A DNA stretch of 64,000 nt, taken from NCBI GenBank assembly GCA_021851405.1, contig JAJZDW010000013.1:18114-82113 (forward strand). The letters are read 5' to 3'. Numbering within the stretch: position 1 is the first letter of the stretch; each line of letters begins with the position of its first letter. The translations under genes were made by a program, and so were the position numbers. Below are positions 19,552-62,206 of this stretch, piece after piece. This DNA is from Pseudomonadota bacterium (GTDB lineage Bacteria > Pseudomonadota > Gammaproteobacteria > Steroidobacterales > Steroidobacteraceae). The notes beneath the pieces are model-generated. The model worked only from the letters and a program-made list of their open reading frames with translations. It made no database searches and had not been told where the DNA came from.

Positions 19552-20196
19552 TCATCGTGCGCGGCGCAGAGTGAGATTGATGCGCTGGCGTCCGAGGCGG
19601 GGATGTTGCCCATCGGCGACAGGCGCCACCCCGTGGAAGGCGAGGCGCGCCGGGCCGCCCCAGACCACGACGTCGCCGTGGGTCAGCGGCAGTCGCAGCG
19701 GCCGGTTTCGGCGTGTGTCGCCGCCAAAGAGGAAGACCGCCGGCAACCCCAGCGAGACCGACACGATGGGCGCATTGAAATCACGCTCGTCCCGATCCTG
19801 GTGCAGGGACATGCGAGCGCCGGGGGTGTAAGCATTGATGAGGCAGGCATCGGGCTCAAAGGACTCGAAGCCGGCGGCCCGTGCCGCCGCGACCGCTACT
19901 TCGCGCAGCGGCGCGGGCAGCGCGGGCCAGGGCTCCCCGCGCTGCGGATCCAGCGCGCTGTAGCGGTAACCGCACCGATCCGAGATCCAGCCGAGCGGGC
20001 CGCAATTGGTCATGGCGACGGACATCCGCTGGCCTCCCGGGGTCATCAGGTGTCGCAGTGGTGCTGCGGCGGTGACTCGGGTGATCGCCTCGAGCAGCGC
20101 ATCCTCCCAGGTGAGGGCAAAGCCTTCGAGCCAGGCGAGCCCCACAGGCAGGGGCCGCGGGGCGTCACTCGAGGTGAAGAGATCAGACTCCTGCAT
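19552..20196 (-). CDS. alkB: AlkB, Fe(II)/2-oxoglutarate DNA/RNA repair dioxygenase
   Basis: This 214-residue protein matches AlkB across its length: MTPGGQRMSVAMTNCGPLGW, NAYTPGARMSLHQDRDE with the iron ligands His and Asp, the third ligand His in RLAFHGVAPV, and the 2-oxoglutarate Arg in GRQRINLTLRR. It directly reverses 1-methyladenine and 3-methylcytosine damage. The ATG lies at or within the end of an IS3 element, so the original promoter is probably displaced. The N-terminal MQESDLF resembles the normal AlkB N-terminus, so the coding region looks complete. Confidence 0.92.
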   Translation of the reverse strand: MQESDLFTSSDAPRPLPVGLAWLEGFALTWEDALLEAITRVTAAAPLRHLMTPGGQRMSVAMTNCGPLGWISDRCGYRYSALDPQRGEPWPALPAPLREVAVAAARAAGFESFEPDACLINAYTPGARMSLHQDRDERDFNAPIVSVSLGLPAVFLFGGDTRRNRPLRLPLTHGDVVVWGGPARLAFHGVAPVADGQHPRLGRQRINLTLRRAR

Positions 20197-21136
20197 CCTG
20201 GTGTGATCCGAGCTTCGGGTCTCGCCTCAAGCACAAAAATCCAGACACTCCCCGTGCGCGCATCGCCGCAGCGGTGCCGCCGTGCACGGCGGCCGGGGTC
20301 ATCAAGCCGATGCCGCTGTGGCGGTGTTCGTGGTTGTACCAGTGAAAGAACTGCTGGCAGTGCGCGCGGGCGTCCTCGATCGAGCCGAACCGCTCAGGGA
20401 AATCGGGACGGTATTTCAGGGTCTTGAACTGCGCCTCAGAGTACGGATTGTCATCTGAGACGTGTGGACGGCTGTGGGTCTTGGCGACCTCCAGATCGAT
20501 CAGCAGCGCCGCCACGGGCTTTGAACGCATGCTCGTGCCGCGATCGGCGTGCAGTGTGAGCGTCCCCGGTGCGATGTTCTGCTTCTGCAGAGTCTCGGCG
20601 ATGAACTGCTCGGCGAGTTCTGCCGATTCGCGCAGCGCGAGCATCCATCCGACGACGTAGCGGCTGAAGATGTCGAGGATGACGTACAAGTGGAAGTGGA
20701 CCCATCTGGCCGGACCCTTCAACTTTGTACTGTCCCAACTCCAGACTTCCCTGGGCCGCACCGCAAGCAGCTCGGGCTTGGCGTAGACGGGGTGCACGCG
20801 TTGATTGCGTCGCTCCCCGCCTTGGTTGCGGGCCGCCAGCAGCCGGTACATCGTGCGAATCGAGCCGTGATAACGGCCTTCGTCGAGCAATGTGGCATAG
20901 ACCGTGGGCGGGGCCACATCGGCGAAGCGCTCGCTATCGAGTACCCCGAGCAGCAGCTCCTGCTCGGAGTTCGAGAGGGCCAACGGGGGTCGCGACCTTG
21001 CACGCGATGCGCGCCGTGGGCCAATGGCCCGATGCCGGACTCGATCGCGATACACGAACCCACGGTTCAGCCCGAACGCCCGGCAGGCGGCTTTGAGCCC
21101 GACATGCGGGGCGAGATCGGCGACAGCGAGCATCAT
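20183..21136 (-). CDS. IS3-family transposase OrfB (DDE integrase core)
   Basis: This is a retroviral-integrase-like transposase, 317 residues from the ATG at 21136 (MMLAVADLAPHVG). It has an N-terminal HTH_21-like part, then SWDSTKLKGP (first Asp), LHADRGTSM (second Asp) and DNPYSEAQFKTLKYRP with the catalytic Glu. The tail FHWYNHEHRHSGIGLMTP is typical of IS3 transposases. Its start overlaps the orfA stop. The last few residues read across the putative IS end. The catalytic triad is intact, so OrfB itself looks functional although orfA is disrupted. Confidence 0.85.
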   Translation of the reverse strand: MMLAVADLAPHVGLKAACRAFGLNRGFVYRDRVRHRAIGPRRASRARSRPPLALSNSEQELLLGVLDSERFADVAPPTVYATLLDEGRYHGSIRTMYRLLAARNQGGERRNQRVHPVYAKPELLAVRPREVWSWDSTKLKGPARWVHFHLYVILDIFSRYVVGWMLALRESAELAEQFIAETLQKQNIAPGTLTLHADRGTSMRSKPVAALLIDLEVAKTHSRPHVSDDNPYSEAQFKTLKYRPDFPERFGSIEDARAHCQQFFHWYNHEHRHSGIGLMTPAAVHGGTAAAMRARGVSGFLCLRRDPKLGSHQDAGV

Positions 21137-21653
21137 TCCTCTTCGCTCCTGTCGTCCGATGTCGGCAGACCCAGGGCCACACAGAGTTTTTTTTGGGCCT
21201 CGATGATCAGCTCCGCGCGCTCGAGCTTGCGCCGCAGGCGGGCGTTGTCGCGATTGAGCTGCTCGATCTGCCGGGCTGACGGGTCGGGCTTCGGTCCACG
21301 CTTTTTTGGGGGCTCGCGCCACCCGATCGGCCGCCTCGAGCTGCTTGCGCCAGCTCGAGAGCATCGAGGAATAAATGCGCTTGCTACGCAGGAACGCGCC
21401 CAGCGTGCCGGCCGCCTTGCATCGGTCGGCCTCGACCAGGAGCACGCGCTTCTCGCCGGCGGAAAACCTGCGCCGCCGAGCGACCGCCACGACCTCTGGG
21501 TCCGGCCGCGCCGCGGCCCCGGGCATCCCTTCACTCGCCCTTCGGGTTCCTTCCGGGATGCCCGGACTGAGAGTGGACCGATCGTGGCTCATCGAAAAAT
21601 CCAGTACTGCTGCCATGAGTGATACTACCTTGGACTGTAAATTCCAGAAGGCA
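20192..21653 (-). mobile_element. IS3-family insertion sequence
   Basis: The element holds an orfA-like HTH/leucine-zipper gene and a DDE orfB on the minus strand. Its ends are inferred: TGCATCCTGG at 20192 and, on the other strand, TGCCTTCTGG at 21653 are similar and both begin with TG, as IS3-family ends do. No convincing target duplication is visible, so the ends are provisional. It lies at the left edge of the lower-GC island. Confidence 0.6.
21133..21616 (-). pseudogene. IS3 OrfA with an internal frame break
   Basis: The N-terminal half (ARRRRFSAGEKRVLLVEADRC, SMLSSWRKQLEAADRVARAP) is in one frame and the C-terminal leucine-zipper half (KKRGPKPDPSARQ, LNRDNARLRRKLERAELIIEAQKKL) is in another. 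The switch needs a +1 jump at the CCCCCAAAAAA run near 21300-21311, best explained as a one-base insertion. A second run of eight A residues near 21187-21194, in EAQKKL, is positioned as the usual -1 slippery site that makes OrfAB. OrfA is therefore probably broken, unless ribosomes also slip at the first run. Confidence 0.65.
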
Positions 21654-21928
21654 GGTATTCCAGCTCACATTGGCACAGGGGGGAGACGCAGACCGCCAGT
21701 TCCCGTCCACCACCCCCGATGCTCCAATTCGATAGGCCGATTTTCGACTTGCCTCCCGACCTAAACGATTGCCAACCCTCTGCCGATCCAGCACCCGGAT
21801 CCCCCCGAGCTACAGCCCCAATTGGGCACCTAGACTCTTTGAGCGTATGGATGCATCATATTTATGCGCTGGCCAGTGGCCGGTGTCGCGTTGCGGACGG
21901 TTCCGCTGTTAGTAAGAGGTATGCTTTC

Positions 21929-22324
21929 ATGCCCACTCCCGCTAAAGGGGCGTCCGCTCCTTCCAAATCCGTCCCGGTTGAGTATCAGGAGATCCTCGTA
22001 AGGCGAGATGGGAACCGCCCCATCTCGTTCGCGGGCCAAACGCTTGCAAAGGTCTCGATGAGCGGAGGTGTCACGGGTTGGTCCATTACTGCGGCCCTAT
22101 ATAACACCCGTGGCGGCAAATTTGTCGCCGCCATCTCCAAGGCCAATTCCGTCATTGAGTTCAGCCAGGGAATCCAGGACCCCGAAACGGCACATGGCGG
22201 GGCATTCCACAAAGCCCAGGTCTTCGATACTTTCGATGAAGCAATCTCCTGGTTTCGCCCAGGCCGTCTGACTGACGCTCTTCGCAAACAGCTCGGGCTA
22301 GACGAGCCAGAACGCATCGAGTAA
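21929..22324 (+). CDS. Unknown small protein upstream of the alarmone-synthetase gene
   Basis: This 131-residue protein starts at ATG 21929 with an AGAGG site upstream; the track places the start further back. It has no signal peptide or membrane segment. Visible segments are VEYQEILVRRDGNRPISFAGQTLAKVSM, GGKFVAAISKANSVIEF and AQVFDTFDEAISWFRPGRLTDALRKQLGLDEPERIE, a mixed beta then helical pattern with an acidic C-terminal tail. I do not recognise the family with confidence. It precedes the RelA/SpoT-domain gene by 84 bases in the same orientation, so it could be its antitoxin, regulator or partner. Base composition is lower in GC than the flanking core genes. Confidence 0.55.
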   Translation: MPTPAKGASAPSKSVPVEYQEILVRRDGNRPISFAGQTLAKVSMSGGVTGWSITAALYNTRGGKFVAAISKANSVIEFSQGIQDPETAHGGAFHKAQVFDTFDEAISWFRPGRLTDALRKQLGLDEPERIE

Positions 22325-22408
22325 TACTGGTGAGTAACCGAGATCCGGAGCGGAGGAGCCCGGGATGTCGGTCGGTTCTGGTCTCGAGTTATCCAACCCA
22401 GGAAAGCC

Positions 22409-23524
22409 ATGACATTTCCGAAGCCAGAATATTCGCGGGGTCAAGTAAACAGGGCCGGCGAGATTCTGCGCGCGTATGCCCAGTCGACCGAACCGGTCTC
22501 AATTGAACAGTTGGATGAATGGGACTGGGCCTATAAGGTCCTCGCCAACTGGCGCGCCTGCCACAACTACCCCATCAACACGTTCCAAGCGACTCTGAGA
22601 AGCAGGCTCAAGTCCATAGACAGCAATGCAACTGTTGCTCAGCGATTAAAGCGATTGCCGTCAATCGCACTTAAGCTAAAGAGATTTGATGGGATGCAGC
22701 TTGCCAGGATGCAGGATATCGGTGGACTTCGCGCAATCTTGGGCAGCATAAAACAGGTCCGGCGACTTGAACATGTGTACCGAGATCGAACATTTCAGCA
22801 TGAGCTGGTCTCTTGGAAAGACTACATTGCTGAGCCAAAAGATGATGGCTACAGAAGCATTCATCTCATATATCGGTATAGGAATTCGAAAGTGCAATCT
22901 TACGACGGACTGCTGCTGGAACTACAGCTTAGAACCAAGCTGCAGCATGCCTGGGCCACGGCTGTCGAGACCATGGGGACATTCCTGGGTCAAGCCCTGA
23001 AGTCTGGCCAAGGTGAGGGTCAGTGGCGGTCGTTCTTCGCAGTCACCGGGTCTGCACTTGCTCATCTTGAAGGCTCCCCACCGGTGCCTGGGCATGAGTC
23101 TTTGTCGCGGAGCGAGACATTTCTGCGAGTTGCAGAGACAGAAGCTCAATTAAACGTTCTTGAAAAGCTCCGAGGATTCTCAGTTGCCGCAGAAAAGATA
23201 ACAACCGAAAAGGGTCACGGCGTTTTTCACCTGGTTGTTTTAAATTCGGCCGACAAATCTGTATCCATTCGCCCGTATGCAATGACCCGACTCGAACAGG
23301 CGAATGCAGACTACGCTGATGTCGAGAAGCAAGCCCAAGCCGGGGAGCCTGTGGAGGCTGTATTGGTGTCGGCCGGCCCCGTGGAAGCCCTGAAGAGAGC
23401 GTATCCCAACTATTTTCTGGATACCAATGAGTTTGTTGCTCAGATTGATAGGGTAATCCAAGAAGCCAAACGCCCGCCGCTTAACAGGACCCTAAGTCGG
23501 CGAAAGGTAGTTGCCCCTAAGTAA
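22409..23524 (+). CDS. RelA/SpoT-domain small alarmone synthetase (possible toxSAS or defence effector)
   Basis: This 371-residue protein has an intact nucleotidyltransferase (synthetase) domain at about residues 60-190: RLKRLPSIALKLKRF (substrate-binding Lys/Arg), MQDIGGLRAIL (catalytic Asp), EPKDDGYRSIHLIYRY (G-loop) and ELQLRTKLQHAWA (Glu/Gln). There is no HD hydrolase domain and no TGS/ACT regulatory region. The C-terminal 150 residues are of unknown fold. It would transfer pyrophosphate from ATP to a guanine nucleotide, adenine nucleotide or tRNA end. Standing in an island with toxin-antitoxin and integrase genes, it may be a toxic SAS rather than a housekeeping stringent-response enzyme. 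Target is not determinable here. Confidence 0.8.
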   Translation: MTFPKPEYSRGQVNRAGEILRAYAQSTEPVSIEQLDEWDWAYKVLANWRACHNYPINTFQATLRSRLKSIDSNATVAQRLKRLPSIALKLKRFDGMQLARMQDIGGLRAILGSIKQVRRLEHVYRDRTFQHELVSWKDYIAEPKDDGYRSIHLIYRYRNSKVQSYDGLLLELQLRTKLQHAWATAVETMGTFLGQALKSGQGEGQWRSFFAVTGSALAHLEGSPPVPGHESLSRSETFLRVAETEAQLNVLEKLRGFSVAAEKITTEKGHGVFHLVVLNSADKSVSIRPYAMTRLEQANADYADVEKQAQAGEPVEAVLVSAGPVEALKRAYPNYFLDTNEFVAQIDRVIQEAKRPPLNRTLSRRKVVAPK

Positions 23525-23866: not shown

Positions 23867-24157
23867 TTGACACCAAAAGAGGAATGGGGCGCATCTCTTC
23901 TCGAGTTTGAGCAGGCTCATGAGCGAACTGTCTTCGAGGTTGCGGCATGGCGCGGCCTGCAGAGTTCCAGGAAGACGCTGAGTCAGAGCATGATTAGCCA
24001 CGGGATGGCGAGAAATGAGGCGCAGGGAGCATTCGATGGAATGATGGCCGATCACACAGAGAGATTCACTACGGCCCTGAAGGAGGAGAGCACGCGCTGG
24101 CAATCCTGTCTCAATCTGCTCCGCGCTTACCCTGATGTGCTGACATCGAACGATTGA
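23867..24157 (+). CDS. Hypothetical 96-residue helical protein
   Basis: It starts with TTG 23867, preceded by GGGAG at proper spacing. The product, TPKEEWGASLLEFEQAHER followed by SQSMISHGMARNEAQGAFDGMMAD and TRWQSCLNLLRAYPDVL, is soluble and almost wholly alpha-helical. It ends two bases before the stop of the convergent ParE-type toxin gene. No family is recognised. Its low-GC composition and island setting suggest a horizontally acquired accessory gene. Confidence that it is expressed is moderate because the start is not ATG. Confidence 0.45.
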   Translation: MTPKEEWGASLLEFEQAHERTVFEVAAWRGLQSSRKTLSQSMISHGMARNEAQGAFDGMMADHTERFTTALKEESTRWQSCLNLLRAYPDVLTSND

Positions 24158-24159
24158 CG

Positions 24160-24504
24160 TCATCTCCTCAAGAGGGGCGTACTTGTAAACGTTGATTCCG
24201 ATCCTGTCTGCCGGCGCTCCTTCCATGCGCGTGGATGGCGGCTACCGTGCAATACCGCTACGACGATAATGGCATCCTCATCAATTTGGTAAAAGACGCC
24301 GAACGGGAAGCGCCTAATGAGAGCACGTCGGACCGATTTGTGAACCGCTGTTAACGCGCTGGGCTGTTCCGCAATCGTATTGATGGTGGCTTGCACCTGG
24401 TCAACGAATTGCACTCCGAGGCCAGGTTCGTTTGCCTCGTACCACAGAGCAGCCTCGGCCACGTCCTGTTCTGCTTCAGGCCGGAGACGGACCTCTACCG
24501 TCAC
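24160..24504 (-). CDS. ParE/RelE-superfamily toxin
   Basis: This 114-residue protein matches the ParE branch of the RelE/ParE family: VRLRPEAEQDVAEAALWYE, then GVQFVDQVQATINTIAEQP, RRALIRRFPFGVFYQIDEDAIIVVAVLHGSRHPRAWKER. ParE toxins act on DNA gyrase, whereas RelE ones cleave mRNA; the LWYE and FPFGVFY motifs favour ParE. GTG start overlaps the antitoxin stop by four bases. The C-terminal tail after ERR (QTGSESTFTSTPLLRR) is longer than usual and may be an extension caused by a rearranged 3' end. Toxicity would be neutralised by the upstream antitoxin. Confidence 0.85.
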   Translation of the reverse strand: MTVEVRLRPEAEQDVAEAALWYEANEPGLGVQFVDQVQATINTIAEQPSALTAVHKSVRRALIRRFPFGVFYQIDEDAIIVVAVLHGSRHPRAWKERRQTGSESTFTSTPLLRR

Positions 24505-24710
24505 AGACGCCGGCGTACGTCGGCCAGGACATCGGCTGCCGGCCGGCCGCGATTCTTGTCTAGCTCGTAAGCCGCCAGGCGACGGTCAAGTTCAGTCTTT
24601 TGCTCCGGTGTCACCGGAAGCGCCTTGCGATCCTCAGCGATGCTATCCCATAGGTCTTCAACGAGCTTTATGCGCTCTTCGACCGGAAGCTGTCGCAGAT
24701 TGGCGTTCAT
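24501..24710 (-). CDS. Antitoxin of the ParE-type pair (addiction module component)
   Basis: This 69-residue protein, with LPVEERIKLVEDLWDSIAED followed by VTPEQKTELDRRLAAYE, matches the small addiction-module antitoxin family found next to ParE toxins (TIGR02574 type). It would bind and block the toxin and repress their shared promoter. Start ATG is at 24710; stop overlaps the toxin GTG. The pair probably stabilises the genomic island in the chromosome. Confidence 0.8.
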   Translation of the reverse strand: MNANLRQLPVEERIKLVEDLWDSIAEDRKALPVTPEQKTELDRRLAAYELDKNRGRPAADVLADVRRRL

Positions 24711-24906: not shown

Positions 24907-25750
24907 TCAGCAAGATATTTCAAAGCGGCCCGGATGTCGGATGTGCCGCTCCCGCATCTTCATCCGCGCCGCCGGGACGCGCCATTCCGCTGCTTGCAGG
25001 TCGATCTCGCTCCATTCCGCAGCCCGAAGCTCGCTGGGACGTAGAAAGACGAGAGGGGACAACTTCAGGGCGATCAGCGTCGTCGGATGCCCTATGTAGT
25101 CATCGATGGCGCGGAGTAGGGCGCCGATCTTCGCCGGCTCCGTGATCGCCGCCCGGTTCTCCACCACGACCGGCGCCAAGGCGCCCCGCAGGTCGGACGT
25201 GATGTCCCGCGTCGCTCGACCCGTCGCGATGGCGTACCGGAATATCTGCCCGCAGCGCTGCAGGGCCCGATGCGCCGTCTCGTTCATCCCACGGCTCTCG
25301 ATTGGGCGCAGCACGCCCAGCACCTCAGGTGCCGTGATCTCGGCGATCGGCCGCGACCCCAGGCGAGGGTAAACGAACGAGCCCAAAATCCACCGCGCCT
25401 GGGTCATCGTGATGGGTGCCAGCCGTTCCGCCTGCATCTCCAGCCATTCCTCGGCAATCACCTTGAAGGTGTCCGCCCTGGCGACCTTGACCGTCCGCCG
25501 CTGCGCGCTCGGGTCGATCCCCCGAGCCAGCAGCTGCCGGGCCTCCTGCAGCTTCTCCCGCGCGTACTGCAGGGTCACATCCGGGTACACGCCGAGAGAA
25601 ATCCCGCGGCTCCCTGCCGTCATATTTGTACTTGAACCGCCACCACCGCGACCCGTTCGCGTTCACCACCATATACCGCCCGCGCTCGTCATAGACCTTG
25701 TATGCCTTCTACTTAGATCTCAGGCTCCGAATCTTCGCATCCGACAACAT
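24907..25750 (-). pseudogene. Decayed P4-type tyrosine integrase
   Basis: The N-terminus is MLSDAKIRSLRSK, then an in-frame TAG, then KAYKVYDERGRYMVVNANGSRWWRFKYKYDG, the DUF4102 Arm-binding start of P4-like integrases. A frame break follows, and the reading resumes as ISLGVYPDVTLQYAREKLQEAR with the core-binding domain and the first half of the catalytic domain (FLRPSELRAAEWSEIDL). The protein then ends at KMRERH, so the HxxR and Tyr catalytic residues are missing. It lies just downstream of tRNA-Leu in the same direction, the standard place for an integrase that used the tRNA 3' end as attachment site. With a nonsense codon, frameshift and truncation, it is inactive. Confidence 0.85.
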
Positions 25751-25959: not shown

Positions 25960-26311
25960 TGGTGCCCGGGGCCGGACTCGAACCGGCATGGAGTTGCCCC
26001 CGAGGGATTTTCATACCCACTACGGTTTACACCGCTGCGTTCGCCCGGCGAGTTCGCCGGCCACGACGCATTTGGGGTCTGGACTTTACCTTCACCGTGC
26101 CGCGACACGATCACGCCTCGCGGTTTAGGCAGGGGCCGTCAAGTCTCTACACTTTCCGGGCAGCCCCGCGGCCGCTCGGCTTAGCTCGGTATTGCAGCCA
26201 CCGTGACGTGCTGCTGGTCCACCGACTTTGACCCCATTCACACCGGGCGTTTCCGCCCCGGGTGCTCAACTTCGTTAAGTCCCTTGCGTCTACCAATTTC
26301 GCCACCCGGGC
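25960..26311 (-). tRNA. tRNA-Leu(UAA) interrupted by a group I intron
   Basis: The 5' exon (26277-26311) is GCCCGGGTGGCGAAATTGG... ending in GGGACTT; the 3' exon (25960-26011) begins AAAATCCCTCGG and ends CCCGGGCACCA. Joined they give an 87-nt class II tRNA with acceptor stem GCCCGGG/CCCGGGC, anticodon stem GGGA/TCCC, loop CTTAAAA (anticodon TAA), a long variable arm, T loop GGTTCGAGTCC and encoded CCA. The intron falls between anticodon positions 34 and 35. It reads UUA codons, so splicing is needed for decoding unless another leucine tRNA covers them. Confidence 0.93.
26012..26276 (-). ncRNA. Group I self-splicing intron (subgroup IC3-like) in the tRNA-Leu anticodon
   Basis: This 265-nt insert begins AACGAAG and ends with G (omega G) before the 3' exon. 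Conserved group I blocks are visible: GGTCAAAGTCGG near P3/P4, CCGAGCTAAGC for P5/P6, GTGTAGAGACTTGACGGC for P7/P3, and GGTAAAGTCCAGA for P7. The 5' exon GGGACTT can pair with the guide sequence GAGCACCC with a U-G pair at the splice site and a bulge, as in other tRNA-Leu(UAA) introns. It closely parallels the block pattern of the Azoarcus tRNA-Ile intron. It has no open reading frame. Subgroup is inferred from block similarity. Confidence 0.92.
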
Positions 26312-35340: not shown

Positions 35341-35349
35341 CGCTCGCGT

Positions 35350-37317
<1,968 letters not shown>

Positions 37318-45971: not shown

Positions 45972-46008
45972 GCGGGGTCGGCGCCGGAAGACCCGGCGCC
46001 GACCCCGC
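45972..46008. terminator. Bidirectional terminator between propeller gene and pilE
   Basis: GCGGGGTCGGCGCCGG and CCGGCGCCGACCCCGC pair perfectly (16 bp) around AAGAC, between two convergent stop codons. A strong RNA stem in both directions, without a U-tract. Confidence 0.75.
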
Positions 46009-46013
46009 AGTCA

Positions 46014-46493
46014 CTACCAGCAGGTCCCGGTCGGATTGGTGATGCCGCCGACGGCGGTCGAGGACTCGACGCCCGCGGAGTTGACCGAAAACGTCGCGCA
46101 GGTCGTATCTTCCTGCTGCTGCACTGTGCCCGGGACCGGCACGGCGGTGAGGACGTAGCCGGGCGGATTGGTGCTGAGCGTCGGTTGCTCCATCTCATAG
46201 AAACCGTCACTGCCGATCGTAATCGGCCAGCTGCCGGTATAGCCGAGCTGCCCCGCATTGGTGGTGTAGGCATTCATGGTGGCGTAGTAGCGCTCTTCCC
46301 GGGCGGCGAGCTCGAGCAGCGCCGATCGGGCCTCGGTGCGGCGCGACTGGACCACCTGGTGCTCGTAGATCGGATACGCGATCGCCGAGAGGATCGCGAT
46401 CACGAGCAGCGTGATCATCAACTCGATCAGCGTGAAGCCGGCGGTCGGGCCGGAGGGCTGCAGGCGCGGTGTGGTCCGGTCACGGTACATCAT
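46014..46493 (-). CDS. pilE: PilE-like type IV pilin
   Basis: This 159-residue prepilin has the cleavage/N-methylation site GFTLIELMITLLVIAILSAIAYPIY at about residue 19 and a C-terminal pair of cysteines (DTTCATF, GTCW) forming the D-loop. ARSALLELAAREERYYATMNAY is typical of PilE minor pilins. It is the last gene of the minor pilin operon and would be processed by the prepilin peptidase and incorporated in or prime the pilus. Confidence 0.9.
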   Translation of the reverse strand: MMYRDRTTPRLQPSGPTAGFTLIELMITLLVIAILSAIAYPIYEHQVVQSRRTEARSALLELAAREERYYATMNAYTTNAGQLGYTGSWPITIGSDGFYEMEQPTLSTNPPGYVLTAVPVPGTVQQQEDTTCATFSVNSAGVESSTAVGGITNPTGTCW

Positions 46494-46502
46494 GGCAGGT
46501 TC

Positions 46503-49500
46503 CTAGCGCAGCTCGATCCAGGTCTCGGGCAGCCCGATCGGGGTACCCTGAACGGTGATCTGCTGGATGTTGTGCTGACCGGTATTGGTCTGGTAGACCA
46601 GATAATACTGCACCGGGCTCGAGCCGGTGCCGCCGGTGGTCACCACCGAATCCGTACCACTCGCGTTCGACTGGTAGCCAATGGTGTGGGTATTGCCGTT
46701 GTTGATGAAGAAATTCGAGACCGGCCCGCCCGAGCGCGCGTCGATGGCGTACGTCCAGCCCGTGTCCGCGCCGGTGTTGCAGGCGAGCGGTGAGTCGATG
46801 CCCGGCAGCGTCGAGTTGAATACCACTGCGGTACCGACGATCTCCGGGTTATAGACGACCTGCTCGTAGGTGGTTTGATTGTATGCGGAATTGCTGCCCG
46901 GCAGGTTGATGTACCAACCGAACTGGCTGTTACCGGTGGTGCCGCAGGCGAGGGTGCCGGCCCAGCAGATCGGCGTCGTACTGGTGACGTTGCGATTCCC
47001 GGAGGAATCCACCGAGACGATCTGCTGCTGGAGATTGGCGATCCCGAGTGTGTCGGTGCTCGTCCCGGCGGTCGTCATCATGGCGCTCGAGCTGAGGCTC
47101 GTGAACTGGGTGAGGTTGTGCGAATTCCAGACAGACAGGTTCCAGTCCCACACGCCGTAGAAAGACTGCGTTCCGGTCTGGTAGCTGGTCGCGCTGCTGT
47201 TGGTCAGCGCGGTCTTCTCGCCGGTGCCGAAATAGAGCATCAGCTGGGTCTGGTTCGTCGTCGGATTGGTCACGAACGCCGGCGTCACCGATGAGGTGAT
47301 CGGCTGCCCGTTCGGCGTGGTGAAGATCGGCGCGGCGCTGGCGTGCCAATTCGTCGGGTCGTTGCTGGTCAGATTGAACCGCCAGACGTTTCCGTTCGAA
47401 TCCCCGGCATAGACGTAATCGACGATGTGGTCCCCGTCCATGTCGACCGGCGCGGCGTAGGCGATGCCATCGCTCTTGCCCGCCTGACCCGTGGACAGGT
47501 AGTACGTCGAGATCGCCTCCGAGGTCGGGTTGACGGTCATCACGTAGATGCCAGCATCACCGCTCGTGCTGCCGAGGCCGTTACCGAAGATGATGCCCCA
47601 GTCGCCGTTGTGCAGCAGGCGGATCACCGGGGTGCCATAGGTATTGCCGAGATTCGAGCCGCAGCTCGATACGTTCGTGCAGGTCAGCGTCGCAGGCGTC
47701 CAGTCGCCGACCACGAGACTCGAGGCGTTGCTCTCGCTGAATTGCGAGGGGTGCGTGACATCGAGCGCGAAGATCTCCGCGCCGCCGGCACCGAGGCCGC
47801 TCACCAGCCAGGTGTGCCACGCGCCGTTGTAGTACAGATCGCCGACGCCCGGGGAAGCGTCGACGTAAAAGTTGTGACCATACTGCGGGTTGGAATAATC
47901 GAGATTGGCGTTGGTGCTGTTGTGAATGTCCGCCACTACCGACTGCGGCATGTAGGCGAGCACTTCCTCGCCGGTATTGTTCGCGTTATTGAACGTGCTG
48001 CCATTCGAATTGAAGTTGCCGGCCGCGAAGGCATGCAGGAGGCCATCGTTGGCGCCGACGTACACCACGTTGAGGCGGCTCGCCTCGGCCGAGGTGTACT
48101 GCTGATAGCTTTGCCCGGAATTCTCCGGCATGACCGCCGTGGGGTAGAGCTTGTCCTGCCAGGTGACGGGCGTCTCGTAGGCGCTGTAGACCGTCTTCGC
48201 CGGCGGCCCGACCCAGGCCGGGCTGGAATCGACGATGTCCCCGAGCACGGAGTCACGATCGCGGAACAGACCGGTCGCCTGCGGGGTGATTTCGTTGGAG
48301 CGATCACCGCGCAGGTATTGGAGAAGATCCTGGCCCCAGGATGTGGTTTGACCGGCATCCAGAGCGTTTTGCTCCGACGTCGTCAGATCCGACCACTCGA
48401 AGGGGATGCCGGAAGTGCCGCTCCAGGTGAGGATGGCGCGGGTGGACGGGGACTCGGGACTGATCGAACCGGTCTGCCCGGTACTGCCGCAGGTGCTGCC
48501 GCTCGGCACCCCGGACAGGACGCACGATGCATCCCAATTGGCGGCCGTCGCGATCGAGAGGCCACCGGTGCTGGTGGCAACAAGGCTGTATGCCGTGAGG
48601 TCGCCGGTCCAGTTCGAGGGATCGTAGTAACTGAAGTACTCCTGCGTGCCGTTCTGCACACGCGAGGACTCCTGCTGGTTGACCGTCGAGGAGCTCTGGG
48701 CCTGGGTGGCAGGAGTGGCTTTGAAACACAGAAGTTCATGAATATTTGTGTCACCGCCACTCGAGCCAGCGAATCCGAAGCGAAGATTGCTGGGCAATGG
48801 ACCGTTAGCTTCTTCTATATTTTGATTTTCGAGAACGCCAACCCATGATCCACCATTATAACTGTACCAAAGGCTGAGCAGACCGTTTTGTGTAATCTTG
48901 AGCCGGTATGTGATGGGGGTCGCGTCTTTCCGGGAATATCCGCCTTGGGAATATTCGACTGCAATTTTATTCGGGATTACCTCGTACGCATTTGGAATTG
49001 CGGGGTAGTCCATAACGCTTTGGCCAGTATTCTGCCCCAAGTACAGATATTCTGAATTGCTTTGGCCATTCGGATTCGGGACGGTGTGATTCTCCCATGA
49101 CGCCCCTTGGGAGTAATTCCACAACATCCCGGTAGCACAAGTTGCCTGTACCGCGTCCTGTTGATAGTTTGGGTCGCTGGATCCGGGAGGTAGCGTTGAT
49201 GGGTAATAATCTGGATACGTGTTGTGCAACCACCACCACGCGATGTTCCCGGCGCCACGGAGGCCAATGCGATTCGGCATGTAGAATCCGCCGCTCGCGG
49301 TGTTGTCGGGGCCATTGTGACTCGTGCCGCTTTCGTTCAGGGTGTTATTGACGCCATTCAGGAAATTTCCGTATTCATCGATGCCCAGCCCAAGGTACGC
49401 GCCAACCATTCCATGGTATCTATTGTTATTGTTTTGGTTTGTCATCGAGCATGAGTAACCCAAGCTTCCGCCATATGAGCCAATAGCATCTTGCGTTGAG

Positions 49501-50078
49501 CCATCGTGTTCCGGCGCCCATTCGTTGGCATCTATCAGAAAAAAACTCATTCCGTCGGCGCCATCGTCGTCTGCGCCCCCGGAGTCGCCTCGGTAACTTA
49601 CGGTCTTGAACGTGATGTCAAGGCCTTGATTCGTCGAAAAGCTATCTGCGGATACGATTGCGCCAGCTTCGTTGTGACCGCCCGCGCTGCCGTTTTGGCA
49701 GCCCATCGACGCATAGACGCATCCGTTTGTGAGACGCAACGCGCCATTGCCAGGGGGATCGGGTAGGGTTTGAGCCGAGCCTGAAACCCCGTTGTAGCCG
49801 CCCACTAAAGGCTCTGGACCGCCGTTCAGGATCGATTGGTAGTAAGGGTCGGCGGTGCACCCCGGCGGTGAGCCCGGCCCGTATCCGGATCCGGATCCGG
49901 ATACGGATGAATTGCCTGTGCTGCTCGCCGTGAGGCAGGCGCCGCCGAAGTAATACCAGTCATTCTCAGTGCTCGTGCCGGTGAAGTTCTCCGACACATT
50001 CACGGTGGCCTGTGCCGCGATGGTGTGCAGCGCGAGAACCGCGAACAATGCTGTGAACCAGGATTTGTGGCGCAACAT
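46503..50078 (-). CDS. pilY1: PilY1-type pilus tip adhesin with N-terminal lectin-like domain
   Basis: This 1191-residue protein has a Sec signal (residues 1-25). The C-terminal half (about 620-1190) is the PilY1 beta-propeller: ILTWSG, YVGANDGLLHAFAAGN, LVSGLGAGGAEIFALDVT and DMDGDHIVDYVYAGDSNGNVWRFNL, with the DxDxDxxxD calcium site. The N-terminal half (about 30-450) does not look like classical PilY1 vWA: GMSFFLIDANEW, GSYGGSLGYSCSM, GAYLGLGIDEYGNF and LRFGFAGSSGGDTNIHEL are L-type (legume-type) lectin motifs. The corresponding DNA is noticeably AT-richer. It sits between pilX and pilE and would cap the pilus and bind glycans. Confidence 0.85.
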   Translation of the reverse strand: MLRHKSWFTALFAVLALHTIAAQATVNVSENFTGTSTENDWYYFGGACLTASSTGNSSVSGSGSGYGPGSPPGCTADPYYQSILNGGPEPLVGGYNGVSGSAQTLPDPPGNGALRLTNGCVYASMGCQNGSAGGHNEAGAIVSADSFSTNQGLDITFKTVSYRGDSGGADDDGADGMSFFLIDANEWAPEHDGSTQDAIGSYGGSLGYSCSMTNQNNNNRYHGMVGAYLGLGIDEYGNFLNGVNNTLNESGTSHNGPDNTASGGFYMPNRIGLRGAGNIAWWWLHNTYPDYYPSTLPPGSSDPNYQQDAVQATCATGMLWNYSQGASWENHTVPNPNGQSNSEYLYLGQNTGQSVMDYPAIPNAYEVIPNKIAVEYSQGGYSRKDATPITYRLKITQNGLLSLWYSYNGGSWVGVLENQNIEEANGPLPSNLRFGFAGSSGGDTNIHELLCFKATPATQAQSSSTVNQQESSRVQNGTQEYFSYYDPSNWTGDLTAYSLVATSTGGLSIATAANWDASCVLSGVPSGSTCGSTGQTGSISPESPSTRAILTWSGTSGIPFEWSDLTTSEQNALDAGQTTSWGQDLLQYLRGDRSNEITPQATGLFRDRDSVLGDIVDSSPAWVGPPAKTVYSAYETPVTWQDKLYPTAVMPENSGQSYQQYTSAEASRLNVVYVGANDGLLHAFAAGNFNSNGSTFNNANNTGEEVLAYMPQSVVADIHNSTNANLDYSNPQYGHNFYVDASPGVGDLYYNGAWHTWLVSGLGAGGAEIFALDVTHPSQFSESNASSLVVGDWTPATLTCTNVSSCGSNLGNTYGTPVIRLLHNGDWGIIFGNGLGSTSGDAGIYVMTVNPTSEAISTYYLSTGQAGKSDGIAYAAPVDMDGDHIVDYVYAGDSNGNVWRFNLTSNDPTNWHASAAPIFTTPNGQPITSSVTPAFVTNPTTNQTQLMLYFGTGEKTALTNSSATSYQTGTQSFYGVWDWNLSVWNSHNLTQFTSLSSSAMMTTAGTSTDTLGIANLQQQIVSVDSSGNRNVTSTTPICWAGTLACGTTGNSQFGWYINLPGSNSAYNQTTYEQVVYNPEIVGTAVVFNSTLPGIDSPLACNTGADTGWTYAIDARSGGPVSNFFINNGNTHTIGYQSNASGTDSVVTTGGTGSSPVQYYLVYQTNTGQHNIQQITVQGTPIGLPETWIELR

Positions 50079-50096
50079 GGAAATACCTCCGCGCGC

Positions 50097-50681
50097 TTAC
50101 GGGCTCGTGGCGGATGCAACGGGACGGATGATCTGGTAGACGCTCTCGACGACCGCGACGGTCGACTGCGAGCCTCCGTAGGACCAGGCATCCACGATGT
50201 AATCGGTGGCATTGGCGATGGTGGCGTCCTCGCCGAGTTCGCCGATGTAGGCGACCGGTGCGCCATAGAAACTGTTCGCGCCGCCGGTGGCGCTGATGGT
50301 GAGCTGATTGTTCGGATTGTAGGTGAAGCCTACCGCCGTGCCGCTGACGTACCAGGGCGCGTTGGCCACCTGGCCGCCGCTGACCTGTTGGACCAGTGGC
50401 TCATTGCAGATCACCGGTGCGGCCGTCGCCGCCGGATCGGTCGAGCAGTCGATCGGCGCGACGCTCTCGATGTTGCTGATCAGCCACTGCTCGGCGTACT
50501 GCTGGGCACTATTGGCGCCCTGCAGTGCGCGCTGCTTGTCGAGGGTATTGCCGGCGATGCGGTTTTCCAGACCGACGCCGCGGAACATCGCGAGCGCCAG
50601 GATGGTGACCACGAGCAGCAGCAACAGCGTGGTGATCAGGACCATGCCGCGGGACCGGTGGAGTGGGTGCGCACGACGCAT
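50097..50681 (-). CDS. pilX: PilX, minor pilin-like assembly protein
   Basis: This 194-residue protein has an N-terminal RGMVLITTLLLLLVVTILALAMFRG, the non-cleaved or unusual class of PilX hydrophobic start, followed by GLENRIAGNTLDKQRALQGANSAQQYAEQW. ATG 50681 is preferred over the tracked TTG because GGAGG is correctly spaced. It belongs to the PilVWX-Y1 complex that initiates pili and stabilises the tip. Overlapping or abutting with pilW confirms the operon. Confidence 0.85.
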   Translation of the reverse strand: MRRAHPLHRSRGMVLITTLLLLLVVTILALAMFRGVGLENRIAGNTLDKQRALQGANSAQQYAEQWLISNIESVAPIDCSTDPAATAAPVICNEPLVQQVSGGQVANAPWYVSGTAVGFTYNPNNQLTISATGGANSFYGAPVAYIGELGEDATIANATDYIVDAWSYGGSQSTVAVVESVYQIIRPVASATSP

Positions 50682-50683
50682 GC

Positions 50684-51532
50684 TCAATTGCCTCCCGCGC
50701 GGCCCATGACGTCTATGACCTTGGTGAAGGTCACGGTCTGCGGCTGTCCCGCCTCATTCTGCAAGGGGTTCACGAAGGTCACCGTGATGCGGACGGCGGT
50801 CACCTCGCTCCAGTCCGTAGGCTGCATGTCGCCGGCCGGGACGTAGACGTTCACCGCGTAATCACCCGGTGTGCTGATCGGCCCGGCGCTCACGTGCAGG
50901 CCGTAATCGATCTGCATGTACTCCACGTTCTTCACCAGTGGCACTCCGCTGTTGGCGGTCCAGGTAGTGCCGGCCTCGAGCGCGCAGTAGAGGAAGCTGT
51001 CCGGCGGTTTGCTCGGGTCCGGATCGGGCGCGGTCTGGATGTAGAAGTAGTTCGTGTAGTCGACGTTGCCGCCACTGGTATTCGACGTTCCATCGCAGAG
51101 CGGGATACCGTCGCCGCTGGCGGTCATGTAGCGCACGGCGAGCGTGTCGAGGCCGTAGGTTTGGCCGTTCGCGCTCTGCGTCGAGTGCAGCCCGTAGAGA
51201 GTCTGCCCGGTGGTGAAGGTGAGAGCATCGCTGGCGTTGTTCGGTGCCGTGGCGTTCTGCGCGGGGAAGGCGGTGACGACCGAGTTCGTGGCCGGATTCG
51301 GGTAGTAGCCGGCCGATTGCACGACTTCGGTGAGCAGCGTCATGGCGAATCGTTCTTCGTCATCGAGCTTCTGCAGCCCCGAACGGTCGGCATACGAGGT
51401 GTGCACGCTCTGCTCGATGATGATCACCCCGCCGATGAGGAACAGGGCGATGACGATGGCGACCAGCAGCTCGACGAGCGTGTAGCCGCGCTGGCGCGCC
51501 GGTGCGTTACGGGCGTGCATCCGCCGGCTCAT
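50684..51532 (-). CDS. pilW: PilW, minor pilin-like protein
   Basis: This 282-residue protein starts at ATG 51532, overlapping the pilV stop (ATGA); the tracked ORF is longer. It has the prepilin signal RGYTLVELLVAIVIALFLIGGVII and a GLQKLDDEERFAMTLLTEVVQSAGYYPNP segment typical of PilW. It joins PilV and PilX in the tip-associated priming complex of type IV pili. Confidence 0.87.
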   Translation of the reverse strand: MSRRMHARNAPARQRGYTLVELLVAIVIALFLIGGVIIIEQSVHTSYADRSGLQKLDDEERFAMTLLTEVVQSAGYYPNPATNSVVTAFPAQNATAPNNASDALTFTTGQTLYGLHSTQSANGQTYGLDTLAVRYMTASGDGIPLCDGTSNTSGGNVDYTNYFYIQTAPDPDPSKPPDSFLYCALEAGTTWTANSGVPLVKNVEYMQIDYGLHVSAGPISTPGDYAVNVYVPAGDMQPTDWSEVTAVRITVTFVNPLQNEAGQPQTVTFTKVIDVMGRAGGN

Positions 51533-61933: not shown

Positions 61934-62206
61934 ATGAAAGAGTCTCACATCGAAGGAGTAGCGATCCACGATGACCCCGAGTCATGCGCGAGCAGTCGCG
62001 AGGCTGCACGTGAAGTGTTGACAGGGGCACACACAGGTTCGGTATTGAGCCGCGAAATCAGGTTCTCCAGGGTGCCGACGCTGTTAAGCGAAGCGGAAGG
62101 CAAAATGTCTCAGGGGCGCTATCGCAAGTCTCTGGGTGGCCCTGCGCGGTCGCAGACCCGATACATGTGTGGAACCTTCTTGCGCGAGAACCGGGAGATC
62201 CCATAG
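61934..62206 (+). CDS. Small ORF in the group II intron 5' region
   Basis: This 90-residue frame (MKESHIEGVAIHDDPESC, then REVLTGAHTGSVLSREI) looks like the short ORFs commonly annotated just before the reverse transcriptase in this class of group II intron. Its conservation is most likely due to the structured intron RNA, not to a working protein. AAGGAG lies upstream. It ends directly before the reverse transcriptase start. Confidence 0.4.
   Translation: MKESHIEGVAIHDDPESCASSREAAREVLTGAHTGSVLSREIRFSRVPTLLSEAEGKMSQGRYRKSLGGPARSQTRYMCGTFLRENREIP

Follow-up and report, generated by a model that had tools for sequence, protein, structure and literature searches.

A divergent member of the one-gene CapRel immune system in a tRNA-linked island of a Steroidobacteraceae genome

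Introduction

Small alarmone synthetases of the RelQ and RelP type make (p)ppGpp. CapRel, a fused subtype of the toxic small alarmone synthetases (toxSAS), was described in 2022 (PMC9712102). Full-length CapRel-SJ46 is non-toxic without its phage trigger, its YXXY motif (Y352, Y355) is modelled between R79 and R116, where it blocks the ATP site, and the protein becomes toxic upon change at A77, R116, V338, L339, A341, A351, Y352 or Y355 (PMC9712102). Conservation in the sensor part of CapRel is low, as published (PMC9712102), and the known triggers are varied: CapRel-SJ46 recognises the capsid protein and the unrelated Gp54 (PMC9712102, PMC11578894), and CapRel-Ebc recognises Gp0.4 with FtsZ (PMC13423816). 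Blockade of the donor site by YXXY has been reported for the tRNA-modifying toxSAS, and blockade of the acceptor site for the ppApp makers (PMC11782079).

Here we analyse a 64,000-nucleotide stretch of a Steroidobacteraceae genome, referred to throughout as the window. An earlier note had proposed that it carries a toxic small alarmone synthetase or phage-defence effector in a genomic island, arranged as a two-gene unit and possibly of an undescribed subtype. We find that the kind of system was correctly recognised and that its architecture and novelty were not: the window protein is a new, divergent member of the known one-gene immune system CapRel, there is no undescribed two-gene unit, and the role of antitoxin falls to the C-terminal domain of the protein itself.

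Results

The gene occupies 371 open codons on the plus strand, with AGGAAAG, which resembles a ribosome-binding site, a few bases 5' of its ATG. As the earlier note had it, the synthetase motifs are intact and the surrounding DNA is of lower GC (52% in the CapRel gene, 68% in the window). Pfam places RelA_SpoT at residues 78-184 (E 4.5e-17) and assigns no second domain to the 371-residue protein, so that the HD hydrolase, TGS and ACT features of long RelA/SpoT proteins are all absent from its Pfam annotation. A promoter and terminator scan returned nothing above chance. The features of the protein are as follows.

22409-23524, plus strand: fused CapRel-type toxin-antitoxin protein, 371 aa (Pfam, PADLOC, PHROG, CapRel-SJ46 match, model)
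22517-22978, plus strand: toxSYNTH domain, about residues 37-190 (R79, R108, G-loop Y148, E171/Q173/R175, H180)
23174-23464, plus strand: C-terminal antitoxin/sensor region, about residues 256-352 (CapRel-SJ46 alignment, model)
23402-23413, plus strand: YXXY self-inhibition motif, Y332-P-N-Y335 (aligned with SJ46 Y352/Y355)

Among solved structures, the top sequence match is CapRel-SJ46 (7ztb, 9erv), which aligns over residues 37-349 with 34% identity (E 5e-40); RelQ follows far behind, at 2e-11 and over the catalytic domain only. Two family models, PADLOC PDC-S33 (5e-124) and phrog_4773 of PHROG (5e-106), match the window protein over its full length, and CapRel-SJ46 itself matches both. In the C-terminal part, the stretch LKRAYPNYFLDTNEF of the window protein aligns with LKKAYPNYFGSTNQF of CapRel, and we therefore identify the 150 residues that had been called unassignable as the antitoxin/sensor region, with residues 256-352 or so being the counterpart of the CapRel-SJ46 pseudo-zinc-finger domain and C-terminal anchor. 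The earlier statement that a hydrolase domain is missing stands, and the accompanying statement that regulatory domains are missing does not.

Residue-level conservation was read from an alignment of 115 sequences that are less than 85% identical to one another, the window protein included. Eight positions (R79, R108, Y148, H152, E171, Q173, R175 and H180) are invariant in 115 of 115 sequences, and among them the ATP-site arginines R79 and R108 align with SJ46 R79 and R116, and the G-loop Y148 with SJ46 Y155. The SJ46 residues A77, R79, R116 and Y155 are identical in the window protein (A77, R79, R108, Y148), as are V338, L339, A351, Y352 and Y355 (V318, L319, A331, Y332, Y335), so that the YXXY motif Y332-P-N-Y335 is present together with its hydrophobic scaffold V318, L319 and A331. 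The sole mapped self-inhibition position to have changed is SJ46 A341, which is S321 here, serine being the commonest residue at that position in the family. Of the two tyrosines of YXXY, the first is kept in 112 of the 115 aligned sequences and the last in 105, the remaining 10 having F at the latter position.

A stretch between the synthetase domain and the self-inhibition motif is more variable. Mean column entropy reaches 2.63 bits at residues 263-310 versus 1.58 at 76-190 and 1.68 at 311-340, and comparable variability is found only at the two ends of the protein; high entropy of this kind is expected of a sensor. Identity between the window protein and SJ46 falls to 22% in the sensor stretch, where the capsid-trigger residues of SJ46 are not kept: L280 has no equivalent and L307 is replaced by S284. 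At 34% identity overall and 22% in the sensor, both the substrate and the class of trigger could differ from those of SJ46.

An AlphaFold2 model of the window protein, built from 73 sequences, reached a pLDDT of 92 and a pTM of 0.87. In it, a short helix is formed by residues 333-336, within the YXXY stretch, and the C-terminus ends in a tail of about 19 residues, modelled at low confidence and lacking in most relatives. The best matches of this model among solved structures are three CapRel chains. By VIA-align, 273 of its residues superimpose on CapRel 7ztb with a Z of 26.5 and an rmsd of 2.8, the match running from residue 5 to residue 352, whereas the runner-up family, SAS1, reaches a Z of 15.3 and spans 42-223 only. 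Foldseek gave a global TM-score to 7ztb of 0.64 and an rmsd of 9.7, as would be seen if the domains were placed differently in a closed model and an open crystal form.

The gene lies in an island of variable cargo that is bordered by AlkB/HiPIP and tRNA-Leu(UAA); its other members are listed below.

20183-21616, minus strand: IS3-family transposase-like ORF on the other cargo side (NF033516, 169 bits, cut-off 160)
21929-22324, plus strand: 131-aa ORF, a neighbour outside the CapRel system, from a small family in few genomes of the same genus
24160-24710, minus strand: ParE-like toxin and Unstab_antitox-type antitoxin (Pfam), a toxin-antitoxin pair distinct from CapRel within this island
24907-25623, minus strand: tyrosine integrase fragment adjacent to the tRNA (sister genome G006 has a 90% identical integrase at this tRNA)
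25960-26311, minus strand: tRNA-Leu(UAA) with a 265-nt intron, the tRNA side of the island (intron-aware scan)

The adjoining toxin-antitoxin pair that the earlier note had seen is thus confirmed. The tRNA-linked integrase of that note is borne out with regard to the tRNA, which a plain tRNA scan did not return and an intron-aware scan identified as tRNA-Leu(UAA); the integrase itself is a fragment that matches only positions 23-68 of a 172-position catalytic profile. In G006, CcmA, tRNA-Leu(UAA), an integrase (90% identical) and the ParE/antitoxin pair (84-86%) lie on one side and AlkB and HiPIP on the opposite side, and the roughly 12 kb of cargo between them lacks both CapRel and the 131-aa gene. 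Other members of the genus have this tRNA too and, in part, the integrase. As these borders are conserved while the cargo differs, we conclude that this is a hotspot linked to the tRNA, where the cargo varies. A search of the window for a duplicated attachment site, allowing up to 3 mismatches, returned no further copy of the tRNA 3' end.

Several other observations concern the tRNA and the wider window. The 265-nt intron sits in the anticodon loop, and at the tRNA-Leu(UAA) beside ccmA six genomes of the genus carry an intron of 238-334 nt (the window and L211, L214, L219, L220 and L221) and four do not (L212, L213, L217 and L218). The Rfam group I intron model RF00028 gave no match on this intron, in which the blocks tgcaatNccgagctaagcc, gtagagacttgacggcccc and aaagtccagac resemble a group I intron core. 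A 96-aa ORF 3' of CapRel (23867-24157, plus strand) matches no family, and the CapRel loci contain no homologue of it. Further along lie a TPP riboswitch (35344-35465, plus strand, 68 bits), a dip in GC to 0.58-0.63 at 46000-51000 that is possibly a second island, and a group II intron D1-D4-6 match (61939-62159, plus strand, 179 bits) in a second low-GC zone near the window end.

The distribution of CapRel is patchy. Among 58 genomes of the genus, the window's is the only one with a full-length PDC-S33 match; genome G005 holds two adjacent fragments (G005:C29:14024-14606, plus strand) that match PDC-S33 positions 137-248 and 262-336 and are probably a decayed CapRel. Relatives occur in prophages, plasmids and scattered phyla, and the closest of them (58-65%) come from Burkholderiaceae, Lysobacteraceae, Verrucomicrobiota and Desulfovibrionaceae, a cross-phylum pattern that fits horizontal spread. 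When the order was searched with the window protein, most matches were to the synthetase domain of long Rel/SpoT proteins. The clade of the window protein comprises 20 rows of the tree with a support of 99, and we know of no member of it that has been experimentally tested.

Three other readings of the locus were weighed. In the first, that of the earlier note, the locus is a two-gene toxSAS with the 131-residue protein as the synthetase's antitoxin. The adjacency is real, both genes being low in GC and on the same strand with 84 bases between them; the start of the 131-aa ORF is uncertain, as the same frame is already open from an ATG at 21719. The pairing, by contrast, is not conserved, which is one half of what the earlier note had named as refuting its proposal. 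Homologues of the 131-aa protein occur in 5 of 59 other relatives, all of the same genus and 35-46% identical, and none of the five has a CapRel within flanks of about 1.5 kb. Conversely, a 131-aa homologue is absent from all of the roughly 165 other CapRel loci, whose flanks were covered to as much as 4-5 kb and to less where a contig ended, these loci being drawn from genomes, prophages and plasmids and including some near-duplicates; nor did inspection of the ORFs flanking ten of the nearest CapRel homologues reveal a common partner. Searches with the 131-aa protein in Pfam, PADLOC, PHROG, plasmids and viral contigs returned nothing, and a candidate assignment of its family to EXLDI, at 13 bits in two members versus a cut-off of 32 bits, was set aside. 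Because the pairing is not conserved, we regard the 131-aa gene as a bystander or island passenger, and CapRel moreover carries YXXY and an antitoxin fold in cis. The two-gene system was accordingly rejected on gene-neighbourhood evidence, and we consider it highly improbable.

That the gene encodes a housekeeping-type (p)ppGpp maker of the RelQ/RelP kind with a C-terminal regulatory domain would agree with the match of RelQ/SAS folds to its N-terminal half (Z about 15) and with a 55-bit match to a YjbM model, yet the cut-off of that model (NF053588) is 320 bits, the best and whole-length match is CapRel, and a YXXY motif and a patchy, mobile distribution also speak against it. The genome, moreover, already has two long Rel/SpoT proteins; we give this reading next to no credence. 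The third reading, that the protein derives from a CapRel but has changed its effector chemistry, perhaps to ppApp synthesis, on a branch remote from tested members, draws on the 34% identity to SJ46 and on a strongly supported clade in which no member is, to our knowledge, a tested one. Against this, all donor-site residues and nearly all self-inhibition residues are kept, and donor-site neutralisation has been reported for tRNA-targeting toxSAS, and acceptor-site neutralisation for ppApp makers (PMC11782079), so that we deem it very unlikely. Full-length homology, the catalytic and self-inhibition residues, the predicted fold, the lack of a conserved partner and the variable island together lead us to place at about 90% the probability that the window gene encodes a fused CapRel, in which a single polypeptide combines a toxic tRNA-pyrophosphokinase (toxSYNTH) with an antitoxin and phage sensor of its own.

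Discussion

By analogy with CapRel-SJ46, the window protein would at rest be a self-inhibited, non-toxic tRNA pyrophosphokinase. Upon infection, a phage protein or a complex of phage and host proteins may bind the variable C-terminal region and pull the C-terminal domain off, which would open the active site; the opened synthetase would then pyrophosphorylate tRNA 3'-CCA ends, translation would stop and few phages would be expected from the infected cell, as in abortive infection. Non-toxicity at rest, the tRNA substrate, the phage trigger and the abortive outcome are carried over from published work (PMC9712102, PMC11782079, PMC11578894). One consequence is that harmless expression of the full-length protein would be compatible with a CapRel, since full-length CapRel-SJ46 likewise shows no toxicity in the absence of its trigger.

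We expect nothing new in the basic mechanism. What the locus offers is a well-supported CapRel immune gene in a genus where such genes are rare, the removal of a false lead in the form of the 131-residue 'antitoxin', and a deep, horizontally spread family whose diverse sensors may serve in finding phage triggers. A tentative proposal, to which we give somewhat less than even odds, is that the window clade, which extends across many phyla, senses phage proteins, or complexes of host and phage proteins, of a class so far not seen to trigger a CapRel, or selects a different set of tRNAs.

In comparison with known systems, RelQ and RelP (5dec, 6ewz) share the nucleotide pyrophosphokinase fold with the N-terminal half of the window protein but are without the C-terminal antitoxin. 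The synthetase domain of the bicistronic toxSAS FaRel2-ATfaRel2 is related, and that system relies on YXXY for neutralisation at the donor site (PMC11782079), whereas its antitoxin is a separate protein, fused in the window protein, and the FaRel2 sequence matches only at E 0.26. From the PADLOC candidate PDC-S33 and phrog_4773, models that carry no function name, no difference was seen. CapRel-Ebc of Enterobacter chengduensis is, by its published description, likewise a fused one-gene toxSAS with a C-terminal sensor; its known trigger is T7 Gp0.4 with host FtsZ (PMC13423816). CapRel-SJ46 of Salmonella phage SJ46 is alike in architecture, catalytic residues, YXXY and scaffold, predicted fold and mobile-element setting; the window protein differs from it in sequence, at 34% identity overall and 22% in the sensor, and in its C-terminal tail.
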